Shown here: one piece after another, positions 1,233 through 26,855 of the stretch
Numbering within the stretch: the first letter of the stretch is position 1
Layout: every line of letters starts with the position of its first letter
From: a virus
Virus record (IMG/VR): IMGVR_UViG_3300042691_022814
Coordinates: 1 to 29,449 of that record
Strand: one strand, 5' to 3'
Length of the DNA: 29,449 bases
Notes under the pieces: generated by a model
Told to the model about the DNA's origin: nothing
Seen by the model: the letters and a program-made list of their open reading frames with translations, nothing else
The model's database searches: none
Program-made: the position numbers and the translations under genes

Positions 1233-2705
1233 CTACAACCAGCGATCCAGTGATGTCCAGAAAGCACCAGTAGAATGGGTAGTTGATCGCCTATATTTTT
1301 CCCGATGGACCTGAAAATACCGATCTACCAGCAACCCCAAGGATTTCCGGCTGAATGGCATTTTATTGCCGAAATCGTCTTCTCCCGGATCATAGAAATA
1401 TGGCTCGTCAGAAGACGCAATGTCTGTCATTTGCTTGTTGTACGCCTGCTCCGCAATACCACGGAGCCAGTTCTTATCATGCATCCCCGGTTTTGGGGTC
1501 TGGTCCTCACGCAGCATCGACCATGCTTTATCAGCCCATAAATGTTCGTCAGGGCCGAGATGTTCCTGTAGCAGTGCGGTGTCCAAAGATCCGTACAGTC
1601 CGTCCGCATTTTTCAGACTGTTGTGATCCAGCCCTTTATTCTCCATGTCTCGAAGCGTTCCGGAATGCACTCCCCATGCTTTCCGAATCTGCGTCTTCAC
1701 CTGCTCACGACGGTTCCATTCATCTTGCTCCCACTGCTGCATAGACTCAGCATGTGCTCGCAATTCTGCTGGATCCATTTCGTATTCAGCAGCAATCTCG
1801 TCGATGTTGCGGTCAGGGTTTTCTTCGACGTCTTTCGTCCACTTCCGATTCTGCCGAACCAGTGACTCGCGGTCTTTCTTCGCCTGATCAAATGCGTCGA
1901 AGTTACCATCAAACTTTGTTGCGACATCAGACCTCTTAAGCGGCTTGCCTGCTGCTTCCGGCTGTTCAGGAACTGACTGTTCCAGTTCTTCAGGATCGAA
2001 CGTGTCGTCTAGTTCTCGATCATGTCCGTTGTCTGAAACATCGACAGGTCCGTCAATCGCTGGTGGAGTGTCACTCTGTCCGGCTTCTGGAACCGATCCC
2101 ACATCACTTTCGCCAGCCGAATCTCTGCCGGGTTCTGAGCTTGTGCTGTCACTATCTTCGACAGCACCGACACTCTCTGGCGTCGATACTCTATCATCCG
2201 CATTTCCGTGTTCATTATTTCCAGATAACTCTGTCGCATTTGGCGTTGTCTTTCCGTGCCACTTTTCCGCTACCGCTGAAGTCAGATGATCCTGCTGACG
2301 CCGTCTCTGAATGGCCTGCTGAATATCGCTATCCGAAAGTGCTGCTGGTTGCGGGGCAGGCTTTACCGAGGATTCTGTTTGGGGCAGCGGTGAAGACTGC
2401 TGTGCATTCGGTTTTGGAGCAAACTGACCAGCATGTTTCTGGCCTGCATTGACTGTTTCTCGTGGATGCAACTGCTCGAATGGCTGACTGGAAATTGAGG
2501 GTGAATCCGCCTGTTTCGCCTGTGCCTCATCCGTGTCGCCTGACAGAGCATGTGCAGCCAACGCAGCAAGAAGAACTCGCAGGATATTCCCGCCGATTCC
2601 GTACCGGTCAGGATCTACAGACGAGTCAACAGTTGTGTATCGCTCGATTTCAGACTTTGCAATCTGATAGCACGACTCGTCGAAATACTCTTCATAGTGC
2701 GACAT
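1233..2705 (-). CDS. Large virion-type protein of unknown function, mostly disordered
   Basis: 490 residues from ATG 2703-2705, which overlaps the portal stop as TGATG and has GGAGA about 10 nt upstream; an in-frame ATG 24 nt earlier lies inside the portal gene and is less likely. Residues about 35-55 contain a Gly/Leu/Ala hydrophobic stretch (NILRVLLAALAAHAL). Residues about 55-250 are Pro, Gln, Ser, Glu and Asp rich and look disordered, including a KHAGQFAP motif reminiscent of portal-adjacent phage proteins. The C-terminal 230 residues are charged and helical (EEIAAEYEMDPAEL-like), with many Trp. Position right after the portal suggests a head or head-tail joining role, but this is inference. 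Confidence 0.65.
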   Translation of the reverse strand: MSHYEEYFDESCYQIAKSEIERYTTVDSSVDPDRYGIGGNILRVLLAALAAHALSGDTDEAQAKQADSPSISSQPFEQLHPRETVNAGQKHAGQFAPKPNAQQSSPLPQTESSVKPAPQPAALSDSDIQQAIQRRRQQDHLTSAVAEKWHGKTTPNATELSGNNEHGNADDRVSTPESVGAVEDSDSTSSEPGRDSAGESDVGSVPEAGQSDTPPAIDGPVDVSDNGHDRELDDTFDPEELEQSVPEQPEAAGKPLKRSDVATKFDGNFDAFDQAKKDRESLVRQNRKWTKDVEENPDRNIDEIAAEYEMDPAELRAHAESMQQWEQDEWNRREQVKTQIRKAWGVHSGTLRDMENKGLDHNSLKNADGLYGSLDTALLQEHLGPDEHLWADKAWSMLREDQTPKPGMHDKNWLRGIAEQAYNKQMTDIASSDEPYFYDPGEDDFGNKMPFSRKSLGLLVDRYFQVHREKYRRSTTHSTGAFWTSLDRWL

Positions 2706-5700
2706 CAGCAGCATTCTCCATTCAGCCACTGCTTAAACTGGCCAATCGGCATGGCTTTGATCTCGCCACACTTCCAGCCAGACGGGTAATGCGACAGATA
2801 TAGAGACTTCGCCTGCTTCTCATTGGTGCAGCCGAGAATGACCTTCTCTTCGTCAAACTGCCCAGTCTTCTGGTCAATTTGTGACACAACAAAAACTAGA
2901 TCGGATTCTGGAGTTTTCCCCATGAATGCGTCGAGCTGATCACCGTCGCTGCCTGTCGTCCCGCTAATGTACCCGTAGTGGGCCGACATGGTGTTTTTCC
3001 ATACCTTGCCATCATCGGACACACCGCGACGTGTTGAGCCGACAGGGTTTTCAATCACAAACCGCATTCCATTCCACCGGAAACTACCCTTGCGATAGTT
3101 TCCGGCCTGAACCTGCTCGTCACTCGGTTCTGGATGAGTCTTGTCTGCCGCTTCCCGAATTACTCGATTCAACCGACGCTCATACCGTTCCTTCTGCTCA
3201 TACTGCAGCACAGCAACGGAATACTGAGTGACAAGCCAGCGAACTGCTTCATATCGATCCTTGCCGATATCTGCAGTGGGAGCCTCATAGATGATCCGAT
3301 CCTGCAGAGATTGCAGAATACGATCAACGACGTGCTTTGCTGCCTGAGCAGAGTTATAGCCATGTTTCTGGGCAAAGTGGGCCTGATTCATTCCTTCAGA
3401 TTTTTGAATCCCCGTGAACCAGTCCATGAATAGTGCTTTTTCACGCTCTGTGTCAGCAGGATTCTTCGCCTGATGAGAATCGAGAGCATCACGAACCAGA
3501 TTCAGTTTCTCGTTGTGCTCACTGCGATCATTGCCGCCAGCCATGTTCTGAAGAGGATCATTGCCGTCTTCATCTGAAGAGACGTTCTGTGTGATGCGTC
3601 GATCTTTAGTCAGCCTACTGCTGTTCTTCAATACCCGCTTCATTCCAATCATGGCAAATGGGCGGAATGGTGTTCCCTTAGACTCATCCCACTGCTCCGC
3701 AGCCTCCATTAAAGCCAATTGAGCGGCTGATTCCGCCTCGTCACGGTCTCTGCCAATCCATTTCGCCATTGAACGCACAGCGAGCTTCACCAGATCGTAG
3801 TTGTCACTTACCAACTGATCACGCTTCGCATTGTTGACGGGAGGCTTCTGTTCTGGTGCGGTAGGTTGCGGAACCTGTTTCGAATTGTCGGCAGTTACAA
3901 GCCTCTGTGTGCTGTTTGTAACATCAGCCATCGGAGATTGTGGCTGATTGAAAAGATTCGCGAACGACTGTCTATCCGACTCGTCGTTAATCCATGCAGA
4001 CACCACATTGACATAGAAGTTTGGGTCATCCGGATCACGCAACAGCTCAGTGTTTCTTCGTTCCTCAGGCAATAGCATCGGACGATCGAATCGATGCAAA
4101 GCCAGTTTGCCATCTGCTGCCAATTGCCAGAGAACTCGATCCGCGTCCTCTTGAGACATCTTTCCTGACAGGTTCTTCCGAATGTCCGATATCTGAGCCA
4201 TGCCGCCATTGATGATATCCGGAGCAGCCTGCTTAATGGCACTCAGGACAGTCTGCGTGGGCGTGTTCCCATTCTGAGAACCATGCTCAGGCGGTGATTG
4301 CTGTGGCTCATTGGAAGGCTGCTCAACACTCAACTGCGGCATTTCAGGTTTTGGTGCTGCCGCTACAGGAGCAGGAGGAGCAGTCGTGCCGACCGGCTTC
4401 ATCTTGCTTGGATCACCACCGACCATACGGCGTTTCGGAGCTACAGGCGGTTCTGGTGGTGCGGGGGCAGGTTCAGGCTGCGATGGCTGCTCACTTTGCG
4501 CTGGATCCAGCGCAAAGTTCGGTTTCGGTTCTTCTTTTGATTTTGACACTGCCTCATGCAGATGCTGCCCGTTGAACTTCCCGCCCATACCAGCCTTGAT
4601 TCTGCCGTCACCAGAAATCAACACCGGCTGACCTTCACTGTCAGGGCCGTTCGGATGCACTGTGATCCAGTGTTCCTGCTTGTACAGTTTCTGCTGCGTC
4701 TTCCTGCCGTCGTCAAACAGTTTTCGCTCAGGTCCGTACAGATCCTTGTCACCATCAACAGCGTACTGCTCGCCGGAAAGACCACTCAGCAGAGACGACA
4801 GATCTGGTTTCTCTTCGTCTTCCTGTGGCGGACCACCGGCAGGAGCCTGACCAGCTATCATGCCCGGCATCATTGACTGCTGCTGCGTCTGAATCGACAG
4901 AACCTTCTCACCAGCACGAGGAGATGCAATTCCCAGCGACTTAAACACTTCAGACTCAGGAATTCCGCAACCCATCTGGTAGGCAGCGTTCAGCGAGTCA
5001 AGGCGTTCCTGAACCTTGTCATCCTTCGTCTTGAGCTTGAACTGCATGTGCCAGCCCAGCGTCTCAGGGAAGTTAATTCGCTGCAGGTATCGCACAAGCT
5101 GACGAGTGATGGTATCTTCGAGATTATTCGCGTCGAACTGAACGATCTGACTCAGTGTGTCCATGTGAGCATCAGCAACACCAGACCCAAGCCCGGTAGC
5201 GTGCGATTCTGTGCTCAGTTCCTGACCGAGAATATATCGCTTCAGCCGTCCGCCGAAGTATCGCTCTACGATGCTCTGGATGATATCCAGCCCCATCGCT
5301 CCCGGCTCAATGACCTGAAAGTCGTACATTGGAGCATCTTCCCCGAGCGGTTTCGGGAAAAACACCATGTTTCGACCATTGGCCATCTTCTCAGAAGCAG
5401 CCTTCTGAACAGCAGCGAGAGCCTTGTCGTCACCAGATGGATATGTCCAGACTTCAATGCCACCGGCAGACCGCTCCAGATACTGCATCAGGAACGCGAA
5501 CGCCTGCTGCTTCAGATACCATTCCCAGTAGATACGGGAGCGAATACCGATGCCGTGAATCGAGCCAGCAAAATGAGCGTAATGAAAATCAGCGTCTTCG
5601 ATGTAGTGCTTATGAACGATGAATGTGTCGCGTTCCCATGGCTTCAGGAACACGGCCATCGCGTCACCAATCGGCTCCAGATTGTAGTGACCACCAATCC

Positions 5701-6400
5701 GAGACTCCTGATTGCCATGCATTGACGAGACTTTCAGTCCCATCTGGTGAGCATAGACGTTCGGATCGTCTTTCCCAACTTCTCGGAACCCGTCGTCATA
5801 CCGGAACACAATCTTGTCACCATTGACCGGCATCCAGCCATTATGGTCAAGGTGATCGCCACCAGTCGGAATCAGCCTCTGACGTCCGTTGATGTTGACG
5901 TATCCGTACTTGTGCTGAATTCCGGATCTGCCTGTCCAAATTGCATCCATCAGCCAGTGCTTGTATTGCGTGAACTGACTGATGCGGCTGATCATGCGTG
6001 TCAGCTCGTTGGCCAGACTGACCTGATAGACGTTCTTTTCGTCCTCAGGTTTGATTTCCCACTGCAGCAACGCAGTGAGACGTTGGCGATTCTCGATACA
6101 TTCAAGAATGCCAATATCTTTCCGCATCAAGTGGGCGTTCTCGATACTGTCGCGGATCGCCTCATCGGGGCTGATATACGCTCGGCTGTACGTTCCCACG
6201 AGAGACTGAAACGTCAGCAGGTGCGGAACCGCGTCCTGCCCGTAATTGGGCGGCATTCCGGGAGCCTTGGACGATGGATCTGTACGCGACTCCATCCACT
6301 CACGCACGAACTTTGACGCATTCTCTGCGTTTCGTGACTGAGGATTCAATTGGATCGCGAAAGCGTCAGCCGATAGCGTCCCTGCCATGTACCGACCCAT
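2705..6400 (-). CDS. Portal protein (Mu gp29/DUF935-like) fused to sigma-like and pyrophosphatase-like domains
   Basis: 1231 residues, roughly twice a normal portal. Residues 1 to about 500 fit the DUF935/Mu gp29 portal pattern: HGIGIRSRIYWEWYLKQQ, RYILGQELSTES, IVQFDANNLEDTITRQLVRY and a C-terminal GIPESEVFKSLGI-type end. Residues about 544-615 carry a phage motif around HWITVHPNG and GKFNGQHLHE. About 616-715 is a Pro-rich linker containing a 26-bp palindrome. About 715-805 looks like a winged helix (DRVLWQLAADGKLALH). About 858-1035 resembles sigma-70 regions 2 and 4. About 1100-1231 resembles the inorganic-pyrophosphatase domain of phage polyvalent proteins (DGDQLDAFMGKTPESD, EEKVILGCTNEKQA). 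The portal forms the head vertex ring; the fused domains could be injected. An in-frame ATG at 6386-6388 is an alternative start. Confidence 0.82.
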   Translation of the reverse strand: MGRYMAGTLSADAFAIQLNPQSRNAENASKFVREWMESRTDPSSKAPGMPPNYGQDAVPHLLTFQSLVGTYSRAYISPDEAIRDSIENAHLMRKDIGILECIENRQRLTALLQWEIKPEDEKNVYQVSLANELTRMISRISQFTQYKHWLMDAIWTGRSGIQHKYGYVNINGRQRLIPTGGDHLDHNGWMPVNGDKIVFRYDDGFREVGKDDPNVYAHQMGLKVSSMHGNQESRIGGHYNLEPIGDAMAVFLKPWERDTFIVHKHYIEDADFHYAHFAGSIHGIGIRSRIYWEWYLKQQAFAFLMQYLERSAGGIEVWTYPSGDDKALAAVQKAASEKMANGRNMVFFPKPLGEDAPMYDFQVIEPGAMGLDIIQSIVERYFGGRLKRYILGQELSTESHATGLGSGVADAHMDTLSQIVQFDANNLEDTITRQLVRYLQRINFPETLGWHMQFKLKTKDDKVQERLDSLNAAYQMGCGIPESEVFKSLGIASPRAGEKVLSIQTQQQSMMPGMIAGQAPAGGPPQEDEEKPDLSSLLSGLSGEQYAVDGDKDLYGPERKLFDDGRKTQQKLYKQEHWITVHPNGPDSEGQPVLISGDGRIKAGMGGKFNGQHLHEAVSKSKEEPKPNFALDPAQSEQPSQPEPAPAPPEPPVAPKRRMVGGDPSKMKPVGTTAPPAPVAAAPKPEMPQLSVEQPSNEPQQSPPEHGSQNGNTPTQTVLSAIKQAAPDIINGGMAQISDIRKNLSGKMSQEDADRVLWQLAADGKLALHRFDRPMLLPEERRNTELLRDPDDPNFYVNVVSAWINDESDRQSFANLFNQPQSPMADVTNSTQRLVTADNSKQVPQPTAPEQKPPVNNAKRDQLVSDNYDLVKLAVRSMAKWIGRDRDEAESAAQLALMEAAEQWDESKGTPFRPFAMIGMKRVLKNSSRLTKDRRITQNVSSDEDGNDPLQNMAGGNDRSEHNEKLNLVRDALDSHQAKNPADTEREKALFMDWFTGIQKSEGMNQAHFAQKHGYNSAQAAKHVVDRILQSLQDRIIYEAPTADIGKDRYEAVRWLVTQYSVAVLQYEQKERYERRLNRVIREAADKTHPEPSDEQVQAGNYRKGSFRWNGMRFVIENPVGSTRRGVSDDGKVWKNTMSAHYGYISGTTGSDGDQLDAFMGKTPESDLVFVVSQIDQKTGQFDEEKVILGCTNEKQAKSLYLSHYPSGWKCGEIKAMPIGQFKQWLNGECC
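4493..4518. repeat. 26-bp perfect palindrome, copy 1 (core centred on GGATCC)
   Basis: Half-site ACTTTGCGCTGGA is followed immediately by its exact reverse complement, with no spacer. It lies inside the portal fusion gene, in the Pro-rich linker, where it encodes FALDPAQS. It shares its 22-bp core design with the palindromes at 17031-17058 and 20807-20830. Confidence 0.85.
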
Positions 6401-22714: not shown

Positions 22715-23223
22715 TCTGTTACCTGCCAACATGCTTCATCCCATCGTTCACGTGGCCACGCAAGGCATTCCATTGCGTCAGTAACGCAATAATTGTCCCT
22801 AAAATCACTGGTATCCCAGCACGCCGAATATAGTTTCGGTTTCTGGTTAAACGCATACCACTCGCCACTTGAATCCATGGCGTACCACCAGCCAACACGC
22901 AGGAATGCAGGCGGCTTCGGGATCGGCACCTCAGGCGTAACCGGCTTCTGAGCAGCCTTCAGTTCTTCCAGTTCCCGGCAGACACGCTCATATTCCGATC
23001 GGGCGACGTACGGGACACCGCAATGAACGATTGGTGCTGGTTGATCTGCTCTTGGAAACACTGCAATCTCGAATGTTGTGGCTGGACGAATTGAATGTGA
23101 TGGCACACTGGCGGCAACGCCACGCAGCCACACCCGAGTGTCACCCACTTGCTCGACTGTATGAATCACATGAGACGACCAGTCTCTACGCATAACCAAA
23201 TCACCCACGATAAACCCTGTCAC
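22711..23223 (-). CDS. Protein of unknown function downstream of the terminase
   Basis: 170 residues from GTG 23221-23223, which shares GTGA with the terminase stop. The N-terminal half is beta-like (FIVGDLVMRRDWSS, DTRVWLRGVAAS, SIRPATTFEIAVFPRADQ). A Pro-rich hinge (KPVTPEVPIPKPPAF) leads to a Trp-rich C-terminal half (VGWWYAMDSSGEWYAFNQKP, ACWDTSDFRDNYC). Four cysteines in the second half (SACWD, DNYCV, MECLA, EACWQ) could form disulfides or bind metal. No family recognised; possibly a small terminase or head accessory by position, but nothing in the sequence says so. Confidence 0.58.
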   Translation of the reverse strand: MTGFIVGDLVMRRDWSSHVIHTVEQVGDTRVWLRGVAASVPSHSIRPATTFEIAVFPRADQPAPIVHCGVPYVARSEYERVCRELEELKAAQKPVTPEVPIPKPPAFLRVGWWYAMDSSGEWYAFNQKPKLYSACWDTSDFRDNYCVTDAMECLAWPRERWDEACWQVTE

Positions 23224-26200
23224 TTATTCCTCCCCTCTCGATTCTGTCTGTGAGCGTGCAGCATTTTTGACAACGCTCCCTGATCCGGTAAGTATACCCC
23301 AGATGACTGGGTAATTACAGACGGTTTAGCTTTCGCCGACGAAATTGTCAATCCGGCCCTGCCGTCATCGGTAAACATCAGGTATCTCGCCGCATCACAT
23401 GTATGATCCCGGAACTTCAACGGCGTTCTGCGTGCATCCTTCGGGTTCTTGCTCGCTGACGGATCACCGCCGCTACCACGCTCCCAGCGATACGTTTTCA
23501 TCTGCTGAACCAACGTCGGGCAGTTGCTGCGATGAATGAACAGTTTCGGCTCCAGTCGTCTTTCACCGGTCACCAGATCCACTACCGGCACCTGAGGTTT
23601 CAACAGATACTGCAGATGCTCAATTCCTTCAATGACAGCGTTCCTGCCTCGTCCAATCTGTAACGGCTTGACATCTTTGCTCTGTACGTACTGACTGAGC
23701 TTGCTCGCAATTCTGATATTGTCCGGGCTGCTCGGGTCAGCGTATGTCATGCCATACTTCTTGTCGTGCTCCGGCCACTCCCAGCGATGGTAGACCTCTT
23801 CCAGATGGTCAATCGTCGTCTTGCTCTGGTCATGGCTTACGTACTCGTCGTAGAGAAACCACTGCCCGAGACTATTCTTTGCCCCCCATAGACAGTTTCC
23901 GCAAACGAACGGGACATGCCCCGGTCTTCTCACGATCAGTGTGCCATTTGGTACGGAAACACATCGCACAATTCCTGTGTAGTGAGTCTTTTCTAATGGC
24001 AACTTGCTTCCTTTTGCGTGTTTCGATTGCAGTAAACCAACTTTATACAGATTGATGTCTTTTCCAGTGTATCCACTCTTAATATGTGTGCAGTGGATCT
24101 TACTCGCGATACCACAATGCACAGCGAGTTCCTGGATATCATTTGCAAGCTGTTCACTTGTTGAAAAGATAGCACGGCTTACTGCGTGTCGTGGGTTGGA
24201 GTTTTTGGGTCTTTTTCTTCCGTCACCCAGCTCCAAACCAGAAAGAAATTTACGCTTTGCCTCAATTGGCCATGTGAACACTATCCGTGGAATTCGCTTG
24301 CTTCGCGATTTATTACCACCTTCGTGACATTTGATCCACTCATACAACGCAGTGGAGGCGATCGTAAACTTATGGGCACCACCCTGATTGTTGGTCGACT
24401 TCCAATATTTCCACCCCAAAGCATCGAGCACCTGAACGACCTGTTCCATGTGCGTTTTTTGTGCTATGCAAACGTGTCGATTCGTCTTGTGGGATGAAAG
24501 ACACCCTTCGGCAATATAAAGACCGAGAAATTCAGCAAATGCACACAGGTCAACATCAGGCAACCGCTTACACCCATTAGTGTGGGGAATTTGAAACATT
24601 GAAGAATATACTGACTCGCATCCACGCGATGTTGTTGGAATCATGATGTTGCGATGATCAAAAAAGTGGCTTGCAGTAACCTTTCTCAGAGGTTCTGTCG
24701 ACCTTGACCTGACCACAATCTCATGGTCGGGCGTCACAGAAAACCCAACACCCTCACATCGCGGCTCACTGGTTATCATTTCGCCATCCCATGGCTTGGC
24801 GATAATCGCCGTGGGATGCTGCAATTGCAATTTCTCCGATTCCATATCCATGGTCATAATTTGATCATTCATGGATACGTCAGCGAAGTATTTCCACCCG
24901 CTATCGGTCAGCACCTGCATTTTGTCATCGAAACATACAAAGTCGTTTTCCGGGCCTGCCCCCCAGTCGATCCCTCTGCGATGCTGACAGTCACGAATGC
25001 GTGACCACATCTCATCGCCCATGCAGTGAATCGACGGATTGAATTCTTTGTAAATCGTCCCTTCGAACGACGCGAACAGTCCTTTCATCCTCACATCGAG
25101 CATTTCGGACGGGACCATCCCGAAGAACTCTTTGAACCACTCCATATCAACGTGACCAGCCTCAGCGGCACATGCAGTATTGGCGTGATACACTTCCCAG
25201 TTGTGCGGCAAATACCGCAAACCCGGCGTTCGCTTACCGGGTCCGGGATCTTTCCCGTTGTTCAGCATCTCCTCAATATCGATCGACATATCAGGATCGA
25301 CAGGCGTGTATTCCACCAGTTTCGAGCCGGGGAAGTTGTACTCACGGCACCCGCGAAGCACTTCTTCGAACACACCCCATGGGAACTGTTCGATAAACCC
25401 GAACCCGCCTAATGACCGTGCCTGCATCTGCCCACGACCCTGACGCCAGCTCTTGAACTCCAAACACCAGTTCTTACCGGGATGACCTGGAGGACTCTTC
25501 AGAGGCACTCGAAACGGCCAGTTGTTGTTGACCTTGTGCCACTGAATCCGCTTCCGATCAATCGCGTTGTCAGGCAAATGGCCCTGCTGATCGAATTTCT
25601 CGTCGAACATCGAACCGCATTGTTGGTACGACTCCGAAATCACCCAAAACGGCGTATCTCGCCTTGGCGGCGGAGTCTCTAACACAAACCGGCATATCTT
25701 CGCTACGAGGCATGTTGTCGTTCCGGAATTGGCAGAGATTCCACCAGCAAGCCAATAGTTTCCATATCCCGGCACTTCGAAATCATAAAATGGTTGTGGC
25801 GGTTTTGGCTCTATGCTAGTTACAATGATCGCTTCATGTGTATCCGAAAATGCCCATTTGAGAGGGTGATTCAGTGCAAAGTGTAATCGATCAAGCGTTT
25901 GAGATGTACAAGAACGGCGTGAGTCTTCGCACAATTGCATCAACTCTTCATGTTGACCGCCGCAAAGTGTCCAGGCTTCTGAAAGCGGCAGGTCACACCA
26001 CTCGTTGCGGACGACAGCCGTTGACAGGACGTCCCGGAACAACAGTCCATTTCCATGGATACATTCTTGTTCATCGCCCTGATCATCCACGAGCCAATCA
26101 GCGTGGTTACGTGCGAGAACACCGGCTGGTGATGGAAAACATTCTTGGGCGATACCTTTTACCAACTGAGGTAGTTCATCACAAAAACGGCGACCGCACA

Positions 26201-26855
26201 GACAATCGTCCTGAGAATCTTGAGCTGTTTGGCTCAAACTCAGAGCATGTGTCGGAGACATTTCAAAAGCAGTGGCCGGTAGAACTGATTCGCAAGTGGT
26301 GGCGAGAAAATCTGTGCATCTCACATATCGCTGCAATGATCGGTCGATCTGAGATTGCAGTGAGAAAACGCCTGGTTGCGATTGGGGAGACTCCGGAGTG
26401 CCGCATTCATCGACACGCGGAGCTAACAGCCGATCACCTTCGTGAAGCTGCCCAGCTTGCACCCATTTACCGCTCACAGTCAAAAACCAGTGCCCGGCTG
26501 TACAAGACACTTCCTGACCATTTGAAAACCGTATGGACAGAATTGGGGCTACCCCTTTCTGATACGGCTGTTTTGCCCATGCCACATCGAGACGACCAGT
26601 CTTCGGGTTCAACGCATACACTCGATGCGGCCCCGCAATCTTTGCGATCGGCGTAGAGATTCCAGACACGGGATCTAAAATGGCAGTGGTGGCAATGGTA
26701 CAGCCGTTGCCCCCCAAAAGCCAAGCCACACCCTCAGCCTGTGACTGGTAGAACGCAGTCTGCTCGTCGTACTTCTCAGGCTGATCCGCTCGTGGCGTGA
26801 AGTGCATATAGGCTGGCCAGTCTCGGACACTTCCCTGCTGTACCGTGGCTACCAT
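23220..26855 (-). CDS. Terminase large subunit (TerL) with two inteins
   Basis: 1211 residues, of which 539 remain after removal of two inteins (residues 52-376 and 641-987). The extein is a packaging ATPase-nuclease. The P-loop region is LLGGNG joined to SGTTTCLVAK after splicing. A Walker-B-like segment is FGFIEQFPWG at about 485-494. The RNase-H-like nuclease has GIDWGAGPEN (D630), YADPSSPDN (D1040) and HTCDAARYL (D1154) as the likely metal aspartates. ATG 26853-26855 has AAGGATC upstream. The canonical P-loop Lys is a Thr here and the Walker-B Asp is an Ile, so motor activity needs checking; related proteins may share this. No small terminase is recognised beside it. Confidence 0.88.
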   Translation of the reverse strand: MVATVQQGSVRDWPAYMHFTPRADQPEKYDEQTAFYQSQAEGVAWLLGGNGCTIATTAILDPVSGISTPIAKIAGPHRVYALNPKTGRLDVAWAKQPYQKGVAPILSIRFSNGQEVSCTAGHWFLTVSGKWVQAGQLHEGDRLLAPRVDECGTPESPQSQPGVFSLQSQIDRSLQRYVRCTDFLATTCESVLPATAFEMSPTHALSLSQTAQDSQDDCLCGRRFCDELPQLVKGIAQECFPSPAGVLARNHADWLVDDQGDEQECIHGNGLLFRDVLSTAVVRNEWCDLPLSEAWTLCGGQHEELMQLCEDSRRSCTSQTLDRLHFALNHPLKWAFSDTHEAIIVTSIEPKPPQPFYDFEVPGYGNYWLAGGISANSGTTTCLVAKICRFVLETPPPRRDTPFWVISESYQQCGSMFDEKFDQQGHLPDNAIDRKRIQWHKVNNNWPFRVPLKSPPGHPGKNWCLEFKSWRQGRGQMQARSLGGFGFIEQFPWGVFEEVLRGCREYNFPGSKLVEYTPVDPDMSIDIEEMLNNGKDPGPGKRTPGLRYLPHNWEVYHANTACAAEAGHVDMEWFKEFFGMVPSEMLDVRMKGLFASFEGTIYKEFNPSIHCMGDEMWSRIRDCQHRRGIDWGAGPENDFVCFDDKMQVLTDSGWKYFADVSMNDQIMTMDMESEKLQLQHPTAIIAKPWDGEMITSEPRCEGVGFSVTPDHEIVVRSRSTEPLRKVTASHFFDHRNIMIPTTSRGCESVYSSMFQIPHTNGCKRLPDVDLCAFAEFLGLYIAEGCLSSHKTNRHVCIAQKTHMEQVVQVLDALGWKYWKSTNNQGGAHKFTIASTALYEWIKCHEGGNKSRSKRIPRIVFTWPIEAKRKFLSGLELGDGRKRPKNSNPRHAVSRAIFSTSEQLANDIQELAVHCGIASKIHCTHIKSGYTGKDINLYKVGLLQSKHAKGSKLPLEKTHYTGIVRCVSVPNGTLIVRRPGHVPFVCGNCLWGAKNSLGQWFLYDEYVSHDQSKTTIDHLEEVYHRWEWPEHDKKYGMTYADPSSPDNIRIASKLSQYVQSKDVKPLQIGRGRNAVIEGIEHLQYLLKPQVPVVDLVTGERRLEPKLFIHRSNCPTLVQQMKTYRWERGSGGDPSASKNPKDARRTPLKFRDHTCDAARYLMFTDDGRAGLTISSAKAKPSVITQSSGVYLPDQGALSKMLHAHRQNREGRNK
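23895..24935 (-). other. Intein 2: LAGLIDADG (DOD) intein in TerL nuclease domain
   Basis: 347 residues (641-987) bounded by C641 (FVCFDDKMQ) and N987 followed by C988 (CGN, then CLWGAKN). An A block (CFDDKMQVLTDSGWKYF), a B-like block (VTPDHEIVVRS) and the C-terminal GN plus +1 Cys support splicing. Two LAGLIDADG motifs are visible, LGLYIAEG at about 777 and LSGLELGDG at about 871, so this is a full-size intein with an in-frame homing endonuclease. It interrupts the extein just after GIDWGAGPENDFV, beside the first catalytic Asp. Confidence 0.88.
25728..26702 (-). other. Intein 1: mini-intein-type splicing domain in the TerL P-loop with an antisense HNH gene inside
   Basis: 325 residues (52-376) running from C52 (CTIATTAILDPVSG) to N376 with +1 Ser (GISAN, then SGTTT). 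Block B is visible at about 114-130 (VSCTAGHWFLTVSGKW, with T119 and H122). Block F is near FYDFEVPGYGNYWLAGG at about 356-372. The penultimate residue is Ala rather than His. Between blocks B and F the reading frame has no LAGLIDADG or HNH motif and reads as low-quality sequence with many cysteines, because it is the antisense of a plus-strand HNH gene. Splicing would restore the terminase P-loop. Confidence 0.88.
25874..26656 (+). CDS. HNH homing endonuclease encoded antisense within intein 1
   Basis: 260 residues from GTG 25874-25876; GAGAGGG lies about 7 nt upstream as an RBS. Residues 1-43 look like a helix-turn-helix (MYKNGVSLRTIASTLHVD). The HNH core is at about 80-125: REHRLVMENILGRYLLP, then VVHHKNGDRTDNRPENLELF, with H102-H103, N105, N111 and SEH124 as expected for phage HNH_3-type endonucleases. 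A second helix-turn-helix-like segment lies near 140-170 (WWRENLCISHIAAMIGRSEI). The only plus-strand gene in the window; it lies wholly inside intein 1 coding DNA on the other strand. Its last about 80 codons are antisense to the intein splicing block B. A weak -10-like TACAAT is at 25821-25826. Confidence 0.86.
   Translation: MQSVIDQAFEMYKNGVSLRTIASTLHVDRRKVSRLLKAAGHTTRCGRQPLTGRPGTTVHFHGYILVHRPDHPRANQRGYVREHRLVMENILGRYLLPTEVVHHKNGDRTDNRPENLELFGSNSEHVSETFQKQWPVELIRKWWRENLCISHIAAMIGRSEIAVRKRLVAIGETPECRIHRHAELTADHLREAAQLAPIYRSQSKTSARLYKTLPDHLKTVWTELGLPLSDTAVLPMPHRDDQSSGSTHTLDAAPQSLRSA

Follow-up and report, generated by a model that had tools for sequence, protein, structure and literature searches.

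The window analysed here, 29,449 nt in length, is IMG/VR virus record IMGVR_UViG_3300042691_022814. On its minus strand lies a terL-like open reading frame (ORF) of 1211 amino acids (aa) without a stop (23220..26855), which matched the PHROG terminase large subunit family at 2.3e-7 and is the host of two inteins. The first of these, intein 1 (25728..26702, minus), is 325 aa long and contains, on the opposite strand and wholly within its DNA, a gene for a homing endonuclease of the HNH type (25874..26656, plus). The N-extein (26703..26855, minus) terminates in WLLGGNG, the first half of the Walker A loop, and the C-extein (23220..25727, minus) starts with SGTTTC and is itself interrupted by intein 2. 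Intein 1 therefore splits the Walker A loop: LLGGNG is followed by Cys1, the intein ends in ISAN with Asn325, and Ser+1 opens the SGTTTC segment. Its splicing residues are C1, His71 of block B, D307 of block F, N325 of block G and Ser+1; the first four did not vary among 50 aligned intein relatives, and the +1 residue was S, T or C in 97/97 inteins of the set described below. The Pfam family Intein_splicing matched intein 1 at 3.5e-8, slightly below the curated cut-off of the family. No endonuclease was found in the intein's own minus frame, where a canonical intein containing a homing endonuclease (HEN) would carry it, and this frame is uninterrupted over its full length rather than divided into halves made as two proteins, as in a split intein.

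The plus-strand gene has a GTG start preceded by a Shine-Dalgarno-like GAGAGGGTGA (25857..25866, plus) and encodes 260 aa. Matches past the Pfam cut-off were obtained to HNH_3 (PF13392, 9.4e-11) and to the helix-turn-helix (HTH) family HTH_38 (PF13936, 3.1e-7), the HTH being N-terminal. In an alignment of 16 HNH sequences 29 columns were invariant, the catalytic residues included. An earlier model-made interpretation of the letters, referred to here as the sequence-only reading, had described a contiguous intein in the minus terminase frame without an in-frame endonuclease, an HTH and HNH gene nested on the plus strand, and a minus frame remaining open through its antisense. Coordinates, residues, the Hint fold, the Pfam matches and the stop-free frame all bear this description out, and the HNH core residues, whose conservation it had left to be checked, are conserved. 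It had also called the HNH gene the only plus-strand gene of the window; seven further long plus-strand ORFs gave no significant Pfam match, which agrees with the claim and does not prove it.

The intein was modelled with AlphaFold on the 50-sequence alignment. The N-terminal part of the Hint domain, with blocks A and B (residues 1-105, 26388..26702, minus), was predicted with a per-residue confidence (pLDDT) of 90-98, and the C-terminal part with blocks F and G (residues ~290-325, 25728..25847, minus), in which D307 and N325 are invariant, with 93-98. The linker between them (residues ~110-285, 25848..26375, minus) is the antisense reading of the HNH gene and had pLDDT values mostly below 55; in relatives it changes like the reverse of HNH codons. 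The best Foldseek matches of the intein model were the Ssp DnaB M86 and Mtu RecA mini-inteins, with E-values from 4e-8 to 2e-7 (4.4e-8 for Ssp DnaB). As modelled, intein 1 is a mini-intein plus a predicted disordered loop, the loop being the antisense of the nuclease gene. In the AlphaFold model of the HNH protein the HTH and the HNH core exceeded a pLDDT of 90, and its best solved match was the homing endonuclease I-HmuI (Foldseek probability 0.98, yet E 0.17). The C-terminal tail of the protein (residues ~232-260, 26567..26656, plus), which overlaps intein blocks A/B, was predicted to be disordered over its last ~30 residues (pLDDT ~40, all below 50), with values above 90 on the intein side opposite.

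Relatives were collected by two scans. The first, of IMG/VR, used the window HNH protein alone as the query and was thus blind to inteins. It yielded 72 HNH relatives, and in 65/72 the HNH ORF lay wholly inside a long antisense ORF; in these antisense ORFs the N and C blocks of an intein flank the HNH gene, and a P-loop is present. The second used 16 aligned HNH sequences as the query and included contigs of bacterial metagenome-assembled genomes. The combined set, in which the window and two cultured phages are counted, comprises at least 97 inteins with both junctions, all with the HNH gene antisense, and the HNH proteins of this class form 26 clusters at 60% identity. The sequence-only reading had named the search for pairs conserved across phages as a check on its proposal, and the antisense gene is indeed kept in homologous inteins. 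The relative phase of the two frames was the same in all 66 first-scan loci and in every intein case of the wider set, HNH codon position 1 lying opposite minus position 1 and HNH position 3 opposite minus position 2.

All insertions (97/97) are in the P-loop (a slash marks the insertion point below). In 87/97 the intein stands directly before [STC]GK[ST], or SGTT in the window, and in 8/97 it stands two residues further on (NRxGK/T and similar); the two outlying points are RG/SNRAGK in locus L093 and CS/SAGKS in L147. Sites may be shifted between related large subunits (TerLs), GGNG/SGTT in the window against GGNGAG/TTSC in its homologue L081. The host TerLs belong to several Pfam families (Terminase_3, Terminase_6). 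A non-terminase host was also observed: in L082 (1908-5333) the P-loop of an SMC/RecF-type ATPase is interrupted by an intein with an antisense HNH gene. When the intein protein was the sole query, one distant locus with a different intein (L001) and weak mycobacteriophage matches were returned; such a query is nearly useless, since the linker lacks conservation at the protein level. Among control cultured phages with related HNH genes, the gene was free-standing in eight, and the ninth, Stigma, had no annotated gene opposite the HNH match. Intein 2 offers a built-in contrast within the same terL gene. It is an ordinary in-frame LAGLIDADG intein (Pfam LAGLIDADG_3, match within ~23.9-25.0 kb), and the plus-strand ORFs opposite it reach 113 codons at most.

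Selection on the two strands was followed by tallying substitutions per codon position along the TerL frame in four clades. Variation peaked at minus position 3 in the exteins and in the splicing blocks, but at minus position 2 (= HNH position 3) within the HNH gene, where minus position 3 was almost frozen. The constraint changes strand at the HNH border and returns at block F in the four clades. In the overlap of the HNH C-terminus with the N blocks of the intein the minus-strand pattern persists; this end of the HNH gene is therefore truly dual-coding, with the HNH tail as the free partner. The expected number of stops was obtained by synonymous recoding using the phage's own codon use. Across 40 loci no stop occurred in the intein frame, where 4.6 were expected per locus, and in the remaining two antisense frames stops exceeded the expectation. 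For the window HNH gene, the antisense frame stayed open in only ~0.2% of synonymous recodings. The HNH strand and the splicing blocks are under purifying selection, and stops in the intein frame are selected against. Two other accounts were discarded. Chance nesting is ruled out by the antisense placement in 65/72 HNH relatives, the single phase and the recoding probability of 0.002, and decay of the HNH gene is ruled out for the class by the codon-position substitution patterns in the four clades.

Pseudoalteromonas phage PHS3 (L159, KX912252) carries the intein with its antisense HNH gene, and phage AL, from the same host species, has a TerL ~95% identical to that of PHS3 without the 900-bp intein. 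The empty site in AL is exact, GGAG/SGKS being joined, with flanks 93-100% identical to those of PHS3. The alleles of one environmental TerL family fall into 45 that are empty, 20-21 with the intein and its antisense HNH gene, and 6 with a mini-intein of 136 aa. On the extein tree of this family the full or empty state requires 12-14 changes, at least 10 of them forced by well-supported branches, so that gain or loss was repeated. The mini-inteins (L179, L226 and four others) are free of HNH and occupy the same TerL site as inteins of 295 aa; these alleles look as though they have lost, or never possessed, the nuclease. The sequence-only reading had counted homologous inteins without the plus-strand ORF against itself; HNH-less alleles do occur, as do intein-less ones, and such a mixture of alleles is expected of a mobile element. 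The scattered occurrence of the intein at a single site in closely related TerLs, together with exact empty alleles, is characteristic of mobile inteins. The inteins of PHS3 and Pectobacterium phage Ymer are 35% identical in aa from end to end (E 5e-49) and their HNH proteins 49% identical, whereas no significant similarity was detected between their TerLs; alike inteins in dissimilar TerLs indicate transfer between unlike hosts.

The TerL extein of the window was 68-76% identical to those of relatives L246-L255. No intein was present at this site in L246-L251 and L255, and L252 and L253 have an intein at the window's TerL site with a diverged antisense HNH ORF of 301 aa. In L252 this ORF (2518-3420) has two HTH-like regions and EEVHHRN replacing EVVHHKN, and it is likely to be one of further subfamilies that TEVVHHK patterns miss. 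A different intein was observed in a relative of the window's TerL, L247 (4812-5759), at the site DHS/C...SN/CDALRY; its HNH_3 ORF (4970-5716, 5.7e-14) is on the same strand in a different frame and represents a second out-of-register nesting. The Walker A motif of the window TerL, GGNGSGTTTC (26703-26720 and 25710-25727), is without the usual lysine. Intein-less relatives have an uninterrupted GGNGSGTTSC or GGNGAGTTSC, and the missing lysine is thus a trait of this TerL family.

Among cultured phages no match to the window's own TerL extein was found. Eight records, seven Pectobacterium phages and Dickeya phage Setonix, are carriers of the element, and in these the intein gene adjoins the portal gene. 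TerL is essential in tailed phages, and the annotation of Ymer (L160, OP748252) contains no second TerL. Since an essential protein is encoded by a single annotated gene in cultured phages, the intein presumably splices, removing itself from TerL; no other indirect evidence for function is as strong. The element has also affected annotation: in PHS3 TerL is listed as the C-terminal part only, and in Ymer TerL is called a 'hypothetical protein' and the HNH gene is unannotated.

Taken together, the locus is very probably occupied by a mobile intein in the Walker A loop of TerL, with its homing endonuclease encoded by a gene of its own on the antisense strand. An ordinary Hint splicing domain would be encoded in the TerL frame, with the HTH-HNH gene opposite it between blocks B and F. 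A ribosome moving along the TerL mRNA would traverse the antisense of the endonuclease gene and produce a disordered linker, after which the intein would excise itself to give a working TerL. The endonuclease would be translated from a plus-strand message and, in a mixed infection, would cut an intein-less terL at the P-loop codons; repair would then copy the intein together with the nested gene. Within this scheme we infer that the intein splices and that the empty site is cut, and also when and from where the plus-strand transcript arises.

Several observations weigh against this interpretation. A scan for sigma-70 sites gave no convincing plus-strand promoter for the HNH gene; the lone plus-strand site, at 26654, lies at the 3' end of the gene, and 0.9 such sites are expected by chance. 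Shine-Dalgarno enrichment was modest (14/44 HNH starts versus 10/70 control starts, p=0.02). The suggestion of the sequence-only reading that expression uncoupled from the terminase would let homing start early was accordingly not demonstrated. The penultimate residue of the window intein is Ala, in contrast to His in 79/97 relatives, and the Ala before the last Asn may make splicing slow. The window HNH protein is without a close relative, so the selection described above is that of its relatives and not of this copy, and in the cultured Pectobacterium/Dickeya trio omega for the HNH gene was ~1, with too few differences to show purifying selection. Co-conversion beside the site is visible only weakly, the full-versus-empty distance of 0.195 exceeding the within-group values of 0.16-0.18 in the first 100 bp only.

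A different explanation sees in the HNH gene a selfish, free-standing endonuclease that by accident inserted into a tolerant loop of a mini-intein already in place, homes itself into inteins and does not move the intein. The free-standing position of close HNH_3 relatives in other phages and the HNH-less mini-inteins at the same TerL site are consistent with it, and as the origin of the arrangement such a landing may well be true. As an account of present mobility it is unlikely: the empty alleles are without intein and HNH gene together, with an exact boundary, and the two recur as a unit across dissimilar TerLs. Still less likely is an endonuclease domesticated for packaging or regulation, like gp74 of HK97, with homing secondary. 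HNH nucleases adjacent to terminases can assist cos cleavage (PMC10448857), but the HNH gene is dispensable in the one TerL family where 45 of ~75 alleles are without it, and its distribution is patchy.

It is extremely improbable that the plus-strand ORF has no function and simply mirrors the codon bias of the minus frame, or that it is a remnant in decay. Codon bias can yield long antisense ORFs, and omega was near 1 in some closely related pairs; against these stand the HNH_3 and HTH matches past the cut-off, the invariant catalytic residues and the excess of stops in the other two antisense frames, and the switch of constraint between strands refutes this explanation for the class. We give as little credence to the idea that the intein frame is unused, with TerL inactivated or the insert removed as an RNA intron. 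No support for it was found, no RNA-family search having been made on the insert, and it is opposed by the open frame, the conservation of C1, H71, D307, the final Asn and a +1 S/T/C in all lineages, the confident Hint fold and the presumably essential TerL of cultured phages.

The mobile intein with an antisense endonuclease gene shares with canonical HEN-containing inteins (PI-PfuI type, or those with in-frame HNH domains) the Hint fold, the position of the endonuclease between blocks B and F, a conserved active-site motif as the insertion site, and the occurrence of empty, full and mini alleles. It differs in that the endonuclease is not a domain of the intein but a separate gene on the opposite strand. 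In fractured genes, where a free-standing endonuclease gene separates the two halves of a split intein, the endonuclease is likewise apart from the intein protein, but the window intein and its counted relatives are contiguous and read through. Antisense homing endonuclease genes have been described in nuclear group I introns of Didymium, Dsq.L2066 and Dir.S956-2 (PMC9548176). These are also mobile self-splicing elements, but the splicing is of RNA, the location is ribosomal DNA in eukaryotic nuclei, the endonuclease is of the His-Cys box type and no second protein frame is kept open. The ShiLan domain and the Pacc40 insertion are hidden, same-strand, out-of-frame HNH genes in phage methylases in which no splicing domain was found (PMC11855218). 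As in the window, a phage HNH gene overlaps the frame of a host gene that remains open; there the insert is thought to be retained in the protein, and here the gene is antisense within a true intein with a Hint fold. A literature search for inteins with an opposite-strand endonuclease found no contiguous case, PMC11855218 and PMC9548176 coming closest; a preprint by Gosselin, Arsenault and Gogarten (2025) on actinobacteriophage inteins of 'non-canonical architecture' (bioRxiv 2025.01.02.630785), which may describe endonucleases in overlapping frames, was outside its coverage and is the main risk to novelty.

A related arrangement was observed in L087 (2955-4961), an AAA+ ATPase in which stops divide a P-loop intein and the HNH gene is placed between the two halves on the opposite strand. 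The C-half is provided with an AAAGAGG ribosome site and an ATG of its own, and from this layout L087 is a probable natural split intein.

There is a reasonable case that these loci represent a widespread, hitherto unrecognised class of phage inteins with an antisense endonuclease gene, in which one DNA segment is linker in one direction and nuclease in the other. Expression of the nuclease would be separated from the late host gene, and the class may be an intermediate towards split inteins, as in L087, and possibly part of a wider out-of-register set that includes L247. It would explain why terminase genes have been annotated in pieces or as hypothetical, as in PHS3 and Ymer, and it offers compact inteins tolerating ~170 disordered residues between the halves. 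With the PHS3/AL pair, homing driven by an antisense gene can be tested directly. The class is also a clear example from nature of long coding sequences that overlap in antisense, with two plausibly functional products and constraint switching strand at the border, and it points to a path by which contiguous inteins could become split. In the textbook view the endonuclease of an intein is fused as a domain, which ties together splicing, dose and timing; here these functions would be divided between two genes on two strands.

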